Shown: in pieces, positions 18,121 to 20,234 of the stretch
How the letters are laid out: the number at the start of each line of letters is the position of its first letter
Position numbering within the stretch: the stretch's first letter is position 1
Origin: Adhaeribacter arboris
Lineage (GTDB): Bacteria; Bacteroidota; Bacteroidia; Cytophagales; Hymenobacteraceae
Assembly: GCF_003023845.1 (NCBI RefSeq)
Contig: NZ_PYFT01000001.1
Coordinates: 1,674,001 to 1,738,000 of the forward strand
Reading direction: 5' to 3'
Length of the DNA: 64,000 bases
The notes under the pieces: generated by a model
What the model was told of the DNA's origin: nothing
What the model saw: the letters and a program-made list of their open reading frames with translations, nothing else
The model's database searches: none
Made by a program: the position numbers and the translations under genes

Positions 18121-18159
18121 AAAAACCAGAGAGCCTGAGTCTATACCAGGCTCAGGCTC
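18121..18159 (-). terminator. terminator of the phenylalanyl-tRNA synthetase gene
   Basis: GAGCCTGAG (18131-18139) pairs with CTCAGGCTC (18151-18159), a perfect 9-bp stem. On the minus strand it is followed by TCTGGTTTTT, ending in five T. It lies 70 bases past the synthetase stop codon. Confidence 0.78.
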
Positions 18160-18228: not shown

Positions 18229-19263
18229 TTATCGTAATAGCAAACCGAATTGTTGACTGGCTTTGGCTCTAACCTTTTCCTGGTATTCGTTCACTTCTTC
18301 GTTGAGCAATGTTCGGTCGTTCGATTGGTAAACCATCCGGTAAGCCAGCGAAACCAAGCCATTTTTGGTATATTTATCCAGAACAGTAATACTTTCGATT
18401 AAATCCCGCCCGATTTCCCGGCACAACTCACTAAAATCATTGTGTTGGTTCCAAAGACCCTCCGCATTTTCAGCGTAGTCTTGTATCCAGAATGAAATGT
18501 CCCGGATAACCGCCGGAAACTTAGAATAAGGCTGAAAAATTGGTAACCCGTGCTTGAACTGATTTAGAAAACGTTCATCCTTGGACCATAAATACCGGAT
18601 ATCCGGAATACTACAATAAGTAAGTAATAAGCGGTCGATGCCTAAACCAAAAGCCCAGCCGGTACCCGAAATACCACCATTCCGGAGAATTTGAGAATGA
18701 ATGACTCCTGCTCCTAACACTTCTACCCAATTGCCGTTATCCAGCACTTCAATCTGAACCGAAGGGTCTGTAAAAGGAAAAAAATCATCTAACCACCGGT
18801 ATTCTTTACCCGGAAAAAGATGATGAATCAGTCCCGCTAGGGTTTGCTTTAAATCTTGTAGGGCATCAGTACCAGCCGGTAAAACTTTCACTCCTTCCAT
18901 CTGGTGGAACACGGGGTAATGCGTTTTGTCGATGGTGTCTTTGCGGTAAACATCGCCGGTAACCAAGAATTTAGTTTCTCCTTGTTTTAGCAAAGTAGTT
19001 TGGTGGGCCGAGGTGTGCGTACGTAAAACGTGGTTGCCATCCATGTAATAAGTATCCGTGGCAGCCCGCGCCGGGTGATTGGCCGGAATCAGCAAACTAT
19101 CGAAATTTTCGTCTAGGGTAACTACTTCCGGTAAAGTATCAAAACAGGTGAAATCCGGGAAATAGTTTTGAATTTTTGTTTTTAACTGACTAACCGGATG
19201 GGTTGAATTATTGTGCAGCTTTAACTTTCTTTTTTCTTCTATAGATGGTGAAATATTGTTCAT
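18229..19263 (-). CDS. single-chain phenylalanyl-tRNA synthetase, mitochondrial (FARS2) type
   Basis: The 344-residue protein contains a class II PheRS catalytic core: motif 2 region HVLRTHTSAHQTTLL with FLVTGDVYRKDTIDKTHYPV and FHQMEGVKV; the Phe-binding region HLFPGKEYRWLDDFFPFTDP; and motif 3 GTGWAFGLGIDRLLL. The catalytic core is followed in the same chain by an FDX-ACB anticodon-binding domain (about 255-344, YSKFPAVIRDISFWIQD to the end), normally the C-terminus of PheT. This is the architecture of monomeric mitochondrial PheRS, and NFDSLLIPANHPAR and SKFPAVIRDISFW closely resemble human FARS2 as I remember it. Ordinary bacterial PheRS is an alpha2beta2 PheS/PheT tetramer. It would charge tRNA-Phe in the cytoplasm. 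A Phe-rich leader ORF lies upstream and a terminator downstream; the gene stands alone. Confidence 0.92.
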   Translation of the reverse strand: MNNISPSIEEKRKLKLHNNSTHPVSQLKTKIQNYFPDFTCFDTLPEVVTLDENFDSLLIPANHPARAATDTYYMDGNHVLRTHTSAHQTTLLKQGETKFLVTGDVYRKDTIDKTHYPVFHQMEGVKVLPAGTDALQDLKQTLAGLIHHLFPGKEYRWLDDFFPFTDPSVQIEVLDNGNWVEVLGAGVIHSQILRNGGISGTGWAFGLGIDRLLLTYCSIPDIRYLWSKDERFLNQFKHGLPIFQPYSKFPAVIRDISFWIQDYAENAEGLWNQHNDFSELCREIGRDLIESITVLDKYTKNGLVSLAYRMVYQSNDRTLLNEEVNEYQEKVRAKASQQFGLLLR

Positions 19264-19274
19264 GAGAAAATGAT

Positions 19275-19294
19275 TTATAGTTAAGGAACTATAA
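19275..19294 (-). promoter_or_regulatory. hairpin just upstream of the synthetase start
   Basis: TTATAGTT and AACTATAA form a perfect 8-bp stem with a 4-base loop, ending 12 bases before the start codon at 19263. No strong U-run follows, so it is more likely to control ribosome access than to end transcription. It may be the output of the leader at 19364-19435, but this is inference. Confidence 0.45.
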
Positions 19295-19363
19295 GATTTT
19301 GGTAAGCAAAGTGATTTTTTGTGGAACTCCTTACAAGAGAACTACTCCCGCCAGGAGCATAGA

Positions 19364-19435
19364 TTAGATACTAGCCCCGAGCGGGCCAAAAAAGAAGAAG
19401 GGAGTTAAAGCAATATGTTTCTTTAATATGGACAT
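19364..19435 (-). CDS. phenylalanine leader peptide, candidate attenuator of the PheRS gene
   Basis: A 23-codon ORF (ATG at 19435, TAA at 19364-19366) lies 100 bases upstream of the single-chain PheRS gene and encodes four consecutive Phe codons (TTC TTC TTT TTT, codons 13-16, at 19388-19399). This is the layout of pheL and pheM leaders in enterobacteria. The codons just before the Phe run contain ACTCCC (transcript bases of 19400-19405), which can pair with GGGAGT (19344-19349). That GGGAGT can instead pair with CTCC nearby (19354-19357). A ribosome stalled on Phe codons would cover ACTCCC and change the choice. No U-run terminator is visible, so control may be translational or Rho-dependent. 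A TATTTTTG element (19454-19461) fits a -7 box, but no -33 is clear. Confidence 0.65.
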   Translation of the reverse strand: MSILKKHIALTPFFFFGPLGASI

Positions 19436-19602
19436 AGCTTGCGTATGCAATGGCAAAAATAAGAAAAAATAAGTAGAAATTTTAATTATTTTCCTAAAAT
19501 CAGATTAATCCTGAAAATTCAAATACCGGCACAAATACTACTTCATAGAAATACTATCCGCGCCGGTGTTTATAAACTTGTTAATATAAACTTGCTAAAC
19601 TG

Positions 19603-20234
19603 TTACCGGTTTCCGGTCTGCCTGGGAGGAACGCTTTTTAAGTAAAGCCAGAGCGCGTGAATTTCTTCACCGGTCATTTTACCTATTAATTTCCAGGGCA
19701 TAAAGTCACTGCTACTGGTTCCATCCGGGCGCTTACCTTCGCGTAAGACCCGTTTTAAATCTGATTCCTGCCAAGTGCCCTGGCCCACCGGGATTAAATT
19801 AGTGGTAAGCGGCGCACCTGGCGGCCCGGCTACTTTTCCTCCGGGTAAATTTAATCCGCGGCATCCCCGGCGCCCACTCATATCGGCGAGGTAGCGCCCA
19901 TACGTAATACCAACACTGGGTTGAGCAGAATCCGGGAGGGCGAATTGTTCCGTTTTTCGGCTACTAAAATGTTTAATTTCCCCATGGCTAATAGCGTTCG
20001 GCCCATGTAGTAAAACTTCGTGGTCGGAAGCTGAAGGTTAACAGGTGGCAATTGTTTTAGGTAAGAAATAAGGGCGGTTAAATCTAATTTACTCATGTGC
20101 ACAAAAACTTCGCTGGGCATAACTACCGTGGAGGTACCATTTTTCAGCGTTGGTTTCGAGGTTCCATAATAATGGGTAGTAACGGGCAGGATATGGGTTT
20201 CTAAAATGAAATACCATGGATTAAAATCGGCCAC
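19603..20234 (-). pseudogene. decayed c-type cytochrome gene (frameshifted, heme motif lost)
   Basis: Two minus-strand frames together read as the C-terminal part of a multi-heme cytochrome c of about 300 residues. The first (20234 to about 19960) has MPSEVFVHMSKLDLTALISY and LKQLPPVNLQLP, typical inter-heme sequence. After a frameshift between about 19955 and 19975 the second continues GITYGRYLADMSGRRGCRG and then the usual WQESDLKRVLREGKRPDGT. The heme motif expected as SGCRGCHG has become SGRRGCRG: both the first Cys (TGC to CGC) and the His (CAC to CGC) have changed by single transitions. The N-terminal heme domain is absent, with a TAA four codons before the GTG at 20234. This is a dead gene, not two small ones. 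Confidence 0.75.

Follow-up and report, generated by a model that had tools for sequence, protein, structure and literature searches.

The window, a 64,000-nucleotide stretch of an Adhaeribacter arboris contig, encodes on its reverse strand a monomeric phenylalanyl-tRNA synthetase (PheRS) of the mitochondrial type (18229-19263), in which a class II core and an FDX-ACB domain form a single chain of 344 amino acids. On the same strand, 100 nt separate the ATG of this gene (at 19263) from the stop codon of a 23-codon leader-peptide ORF, MSILKKHIALTPFFFFGPLGASI (19364-19435). Codons 13-16 of the leader, TTC TTC TTT TTT (19388-19399, reverse strand), are four consecutive Phe codons and constitute the putative control codons. 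The original prediction had described an ORF of this length and codon content at this distance from the synthetase gene, and the description was confirmed at 19435-19364 of the reverse strand. In both strands of the window this is the sole ATG-started ORF of 8 to 40 codons that contains FFFF; the number of such ORFs rises to three if ATG, GTG or TTG starts are allowed.

A Bacteroidetes-type -7 promoter-like box, TATTTTTG (19454-19461, reverse strand), ends 18 nt before the leader ATG. It has the form TAnnTTTG, which is the promoter consensus reported for Bacteroidetes in excerpts of two papers (PMC9723704, PMC7366714). As raw counts in AT-rich DNA, a perfect box is found no more than 45 nt before the leader start in nine of 17 leaders, a box with 5/6 matches in seven, and one with 4/6 in the leader of locus L006. 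Judging from this box, the transcript would start a few bases before the leader and have a short 5' UTR. At the other end of the gene, a terminator-like hairpin (18131-18153, reverse strand) would fit a one-gene transcript, the total of the terminator scan being not clearly above that of shuffled sequences. Just upstream of the leader promoter region there are two ORFs in different frames that overlap by 4 bases (19603-20234, reverse strand). They match no Pfam family at E 0.001, and may be two genes or the pieces of one frameshifted gene.

The 344-residue protein contains the Pfam domains PF01409 and PF03147. It scores 317.9 bits with TIGR00469, the NCBIfam model of mitochondrial-type PheRS (cut-off 258.35), and 313.6 bits with NF051887, named 'PheS-related mystery ligase SrmL' (cut-off 300). 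All eight other bacterial members scanned are above the NF051887 cut-off, and their scores with this model exceed their TIGR00469 scores by 0.5 to 42 bits; the two viral-contig members scanned both fall short of that cut-off. The best solved relatives of the window protein are chains of mitochondrial PheRS, with which it shares the segments FPFT, EVLG, WAFGLG and GDVYR. Conservation of the FPFT, LGAG, AFGLG and GDVYRKD segments suggests that the enzyme probably charges tRNA-Phe with Phe, although it may not do so, given that the 'mystery ligase' model outscores the PheRS model in the eight other members. The genome of A. arboris also encodes an ordinary PheS α chain, which is 35% identical to the protein over residues 21-238 and has no Phe-run leader when its upstream region is inspected by eye. 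Furthermore, an ordinary PheS was found above the family cut-off in all seven host genomes searched. The gene thus encodes an additional PheRS or, at the least, an additional ligase that resembles PheRS.

The single-chain PheRS is rare. With a presence threshold of E<=1e-60, it was found in two of 150 genomes of the family and in one of 395 genomes in each of the class and phylum samples, the window genome being counted in all three. Similar searches, in which the host was likewise included, gave 4/173 genomes of the genus Chryseobacterium (host G878 of L008), 2/6 of Elizabethkingia (host G876 of L003) and 1/251 genomes sampled from the family of the Sphingobacterium host of L007 (G877). The NF051887 model, run on the phylum sample, identified one genome of 247, which is the window genome. 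A scan of genome contigs returned 16 loci. After removal of copies that repeat others by their coordinates (L021, L022, L023, L041, L042, L043 and L044-L054), 19 distinct bacterial loci remain overall, including that of the window.

No gene is consistently a common neighbour of the synthetase at these loci, the largest cluster of neighbours (13 ORFs) being variable in strand and distance. Sphingobacterium tabacisoli has two diverged copies of the gene (L009 and L013), each with its own leader. The protein tree was calculated from 32 rows, comprising the 19 bacterial sequences (that of L007 as a stretch of 283 residues) and 13 of the 17 viral ones; the protein alignment A4 has 24 rows, of which six are viral, and leaves out L007. 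L016, a record named Chryseobacterium, nests within the Sphingobacterium/Pedobacter group of this tree (support 100/99). The patchy distribution together with the placement of L016 indicates that the PheRS has probably spread horizontally; the L016 record may be mislabelled, though the search of the genus also returned it. The two Myroides loci stand beside the 17 others, with a support of 82/90 for the 17 that falls below the star mark in a tree rooted at its midpoint.

Several other observations concern the setting of the gene. In Sphingobacterium yanglingense (L007, also L041) a premature TAA ends the translation from the start codon after 283 residues, consistent with the gene being accessory and dispensable. 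About 1 kb downstream of the PheRS of the sister species, a frame recognised by eye as transposase-like (L019:3497-3913) would fit a mobile setting. Seventeen viral contigs of up to 481 kb (L024-L040) carry single-chain PheRS relatives that are 38-54% identical to the window's protein; such synthetases carried by phages may represent an old lineage within the PheRS family.

The leader is conserved along with the gene. In 16 of the 19 distinct bacterial loci, the PheRS is preceded by a short ORF in which three or more Phe codons follow one another. Among 143 control upstream regions of 250 nt each, taken from the window, 16 related loci and five viral-contig loci, a short ORF with FFF occurs in two and one with FFFF in none; some controls neighbour related loci, hence they are not independent. 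The conserved Phe-rich ORF at orthologous loci, for which the original prediction had asked as a check, is therefore present. In the 15 leaders other than the window's the Phe run varies from three to eight codons, with changes between TTT and TTC. Three of the 16 leaders start with GTG, and three have a run of only three Phe. According to our reading of the protein tree, the Phe-run leaders are spread over seven groups of PheRS.

Nine of the leaders have 20 codons. Summed over pairs, they give a pS of 0.38 and a pN of 0.13 (0.52 and 0.14 for codons 2-14 alone), whereas the three 21-codon leaders show only a weak synonymous bias (pS 0.17, pN 0.12). As the pairs are interdependent and a hairpin constrains part of the ORF as well, the bias supports translation of the leader but does not prove it. 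Three of the 19 loci keep the PheRS gene without an intact leader. One of them is L010 of Pedobacter caeni (L010:2800-2900), in which the Phe run is kept, a one-base deletion removes the ATG frame, and the promoter-like box and one pair of the first leader hairpin are also altered; this leader looks decayed. The PheRS of L010 is almost identical to that of L014, making the pair a natural comparison of a broken leader with its counterpart. The other two are the Myroides loci, where no Phe-run leader lies upstream of the gene. Upstream DNA could be read for 16 of the viral-contig homologs (L033 has none and was excluded), and a Phe-run leader is absent from all 16. A search of the viral collection with one degenerate leader pattern gave no exact match; some of the known leaders also escape this pattern.

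A covariance model of the leader (R1) was built from 15 sequences, without L006, L010 and Myroides. In 13 genomes it produced 12 strong matches (E<1e-7), each positioned by its coordinates just upstream of a PheRS copy, and one weak match away from a PheRS (E 0.1). With at most 150 candidates scored per genome, no match was found in the genomes of L011 (Myroides, G880) and L006 (Saprospiraceae, G882). In 251 Sphingobacteriaceae genomes the model recovered the known copy in G877 only, in a search of 16 candidates per genome with strict filters by which weak copies could be missed. Most of the matched leaders are part of the model by construction; the informative point is the absence of matches elsewhere. 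A known Rfam family was rejected as an identity for the leader, there being no gathering hits to the T-box or other families in the window and nine loci. The sole weak match around the leader is to an unrelated sRNA on the opposite strand (E 4.9).

The leader RNA contains three hairpins. The first, hp1, which the original prediction did not name, is the conserved element beside the Phe codons. In the window it has 7 bp (19371-19389, reverse strand), its 5' arm running from the last Phe codon and its 3' arm ending 4 nt before the leader stop. Over 15 loci, 92.6% of the hp1 cells are paired, and each of two pairs shows one change on both sides. The second hairpin of the window, hpX (19326-19358, reverse strand), has 13 bp formed by GCTCCT/AGGAGT and GCGGGAG/CTCTTGT, and overlaps a short hp2 at 19359-19343. 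Its position is approximately that of hp2 (ATGTCCGT..ACGGATAT) in 13 other loci. In six loci (L007, L009, L010, L013, L014 and L016; -102 to 0) the PheRS frame extends upstream without a stop as far as an ATG within hp2, and the annotated protein may be about 34 residues too long there. The third hairpin, hp3 (19275-19294, reverse strand), has 8 bp and is positioned 11 nt before the PheRS start codon.

Three alignments of the leader region were used. A1 (16 rows) lacks L006 and the two Myroides loci, A2 (13 rows) additionally lacks the window, L019 and L005, and A3 (15 rows) lacks L006, L010 and Myroides. RNAalifold folds the 13-sequence alignment into three separate hairpins (-28.9 kcal/mol), in which 97.6% of the cells pair, compared with 31-46% for slid partners. 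Five pairs are changed on both sides, against 2.3 +/- 0.9 in shuffled alignments (4/500 as high), with the reservation that the structure was taken from the same alignment, which favours pairing. When 15 sequences including the window are considered, hp1 and hp2 pair in 89.2% of the cells and four pairs have changed on both sides, a number that is likewise reached in 4/500 shuffles.

The region of hp3 (-70 to -8) has a mean folding z of -2.76 over the 19 loci, 14 of which are at p<0.05, and the control stretch has a mean z of -0.25 with three of 19 at p<0.05. The original prediction suggested that this 8-bp hairpin could be the switch. The hairpin is present and its position is conserved, but it is probably not the switch, since the window's own copy is not significant by itself (z -0.83, p 0.20) and hairpins with p of about 0.07 occupy the same position in the two leaderless Myroides loci.

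The other switch proposed for the leader is a pairing of ACTCCC with GGGAGT. Both segments are present in the window (19405-19400 and 19349-19344), but the first is ACTTCC in the sister species (L019) and does not appear in the other lineages, and the pairing was rejected for its lack of conservation. Masking the arms of hp1, hp2 or hp3 in the 13-sequence alignment revealed no conserved alternative pairing. In single-sequence folds with a ribosome placed on the Phe run, the ATGTCCGT-type hp2 is retained in 13 loci, and the freed arm of hp1 finds only short partners that differ between these loci. Three further candidates were discarded. Pairing of leader codons with the PheRS start, hinted at by some single-sequence folds, is no better than in shuffles (16 loci, mean z 0.11); base pairs between the hp2 loop and the 3' arm of hp3 fail in several loci on inspection by eye; and a second upstream ORF starting in hp2 is not conserved.

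Only the window and L019 show a possible switch. The 3' arm of hp1 contains a segment, GGGGCTAG (19371-19378, reverse strand), that can pair with CTATGCTCC at 19362-19354, and in these two loci GGGGCUAG of hp1 can pair with CUAUGCUCC, breaking the second hairpin. When the stretch from hp1 to hpX is folded in isolation, that of the window prefers hp1 plus hpX. The GGGGCUAG/CUAUGCUCC pairing wins if 3 nt of hp1 are covered (both loci) or 6 nt (L019 only), and does not win with 0, 9 or 12 nt covered. The free full-length minimum-energy fold of the window is already the alternative GGGGCUAG/CUAUGCUCC form, as is the fold with 0 nt covered and all of the downstream sequence. The expected default state is thus missing from the free fold of the window, and our confidence in the mechanism proposed below, as well as the odds given to a classical attenuator, was lowered for this reason.

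The prediction that no U-run terminator precedes the synthetase holds broadly. A stricter scan found no U-tract intrinsic terminator before the synthetase in any of 17 leaders. The window's leader has one weak terminator-like site (19359-19343), the tail of which, GTTCTCTTGT, has at least five T in eight positions. This site comes from another scan, which gave three hits, a total not clearly above the shuffles (mean 1.8, sd 1.6).

A leader ORF with three to eight Phe codons, hp1, a second hairpin, hp3 and a PheRS with conserved catalytic segments are conserved together. Tandem codons for the amino acid of the downstream gene, a hallmark of leader-peptide regulation, are present in 16/19 loci, and a second hallmark, a hairpin that overlaps or abuts the control codons, is represented by hp1. 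Two further parts of a pheST-type attenuator, a U-tract terminator (0/17 leaders) and a mutually exclusive antiterminator conserved in the 13-sequence alignment, were not found. The logic of a Phe attenuator that was originally predicted is therefore upheld in its first half, the Phe codons of the leader being conserved and the leader model matching strongly only beside PheRS, but the base-paired switch proposed with it fails.

We consider it likely that the leader acts as a ribosome-stalling sensor of charged tRNA-Phe and controls an accessory, probably horizontally spread, monomeric PheRS. The sensor half of this proposal, a leader peptide with Phe codons, is well supported by the comparison of sequences. 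With charged tRNA-Phe at hand, the ribosome would pass the Phe codons and come off at the stop codon, the two hairpins hp1 and hpX or hp2 would form, and PheRS would remain low. When Phe-tRNA-Phe is short, either through Phe starvation or through a failing housekeeping PheST, the ribosome would wait on the Phe codons and block hp1. A ribosome covers about 12 nt ahead of the codon in its A site. With this value assumed, a ribosome that waits would hide the Phe run and, once it has reached the later codons, the 5' arm of hp1 as well. In the lineage of the window, this may release GGGGCUAG to pair with CUAUGCUCC at the expense of the second hairpin. PheRS would then be made and tRNA-Phe recharged. 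We commit to the view that stalling at the Phe codons would raise PheRS expression by keeping hp1 open, be it through transcription, translation or mRNA decay.

Three forms of the output can be envisaged, which are variants of this step and do not compete with the sensor. In translational attenuation, the position of the leader ribosome would alter access to the start region of PheRS. In its favour, most loci have a structured hp3 region, only a short distance ahead of the start codon, and the stricter scan found no terminator in the 17 leaders. However, pairing between the leader and the start region does not exceed that of shuffles, hp3 keeps its partner when the upstream columns are masked, and the leaderless Myroides loci have hairpins at its site as well; we regard this form as rather doubtful. 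Somewhat more doubtful still is a candidate in which stalled ribosomes alter the decay of the leader mRNA or its Rho-dependent termination with no base-paired switch, a form that fits the three independent hairpins without a common alternative fold, as well as a 5' UTR as short as the promoter-like box suggests. A classical transcription attenuator of the pheST kind would have hp1 as its 1:2 hairpin, GGGGCUAG/CUAUGCUCC as the 2:3 antiterminator and the short hp2 at 19359-19343 as a weak 3:4 terminator. It agrees with the position of the control codons at the 5' arm of hp1, with the 2:3 pairing that is possible in the window and L019, and with the one terminator-like site with T residues in its tail. 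Nevertheless, the stricter scan recognised no terminator in the 17 leaders and the weak site comes from a scan not clearly above shuffles, the 2:3 pairing is not conserved, the isolated stretch prefers hpX, which is not followed by a U-run, and the free full-length fold of the window is already in the 2:3 form. This form is unlikely.

The sensor itself would be undone if the short ORF were a chance hydrophobic frame, untranslated, in a structured 5' UTR. Myroides keeps its PheRS without a leader, L010 has lost the ATG frame and the 21-codon leaders have little synonymous bias, as such an explanation would have it. It is hard to reconcile, however, with a Phe-run ORF in 16 of 19 loci compared with two of 143 controls, with the bias of the nine 20-codon leaders and with a Phe run kept in seven groups, and we consider it very improbable.

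A broader conjecture can also be made, which we hold tentatively and with the balance somewhat against it. The single-chain PheRS and its own Phe-codon sensor may be a mobile, self-contained rescue cassette that moves between Bacteroidota, is kept off while growth is normal and is switched on only if PheST fails, whether from Phe starvation or from an environmental PheRS inhibitor, through an output without a terminator. Searches of the open-licence PMC literature brought up no description of such a terminator-less output for a Bacteroidota synthetase. If true, this reading would give a function to the 'mystery ligase' SrmL branch. The codons of the leader would tie this NCBI family to phenylalanine charging: NF051887 is named for a ligase of mysterious role, and the Phe-codon leader suggests that the present branch of it acts on tRNA-Phe. 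The leaders also offer a clean case in which to study gene control by leader peptides in Bacteroidota, a phylum that makes little use of Shine-Dalgarno pairing; no U-tract terminator is seen in them.

Amino-acid leader-peptide attenuators are a known kind of regulator, and the PheRS leader is filed as a variant of these. In searches of the open-licence PMC literature no paper was recognised as describing it. As far as these searches go, what is new is that the PheRS is accessory and single-chain, that a synthetase of Bacteroidota has such a leader, and that the terminator is missing. The leader of the E. coli pheST operon is named pheM and encodes a Phe-rich peptide. There, as predicted here, a PheRS gene with a Phe-rich leader is attenuated by the supply of Phe-tRNA; the present synthetase is, in contrast, monomeric and accessory and belongs to Bacteroidota, and neither a U-tract terminator nor a conserved antiterminator was found. 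The attenuation of pheST was reported by Springer et al. (1985), as cited in PMC11802643. Attenuators have also been predicted before trpS and leuS in some Streptomyces, according to an excerpt of PMC1262725. A published leader system of a different amino acid and of genes other than synthetases resembles the present one in that the leader peptide is likewise conserved and other attenuator parts are missing. The leaders of biosynthesis operons in Bacteroidota share with it the phylum, the idea and the TAnnTTTG promoters, and the available portion of their description names no synthetase. Kitabatake et al. (2002) reportedly deals with TrpRS1 of Streptomyces. The closest functional parallel, as judged from a title cited in PMC4787780, is an auxiliary, antibiotic-resistant TrpRS gene under ribosome-mediated attenuation, which is likewise a second, accessory synthetase. 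That system differs in its amino acid (Trp rather than Phe) and in its phylum, and drug resistance of the present PheRS is only a guess. Like the auxiliary resistance synthetases, the accessory PheRS is a supplementary enzyme, and it appears to travel with its own sensor across families of Bacteroidota.
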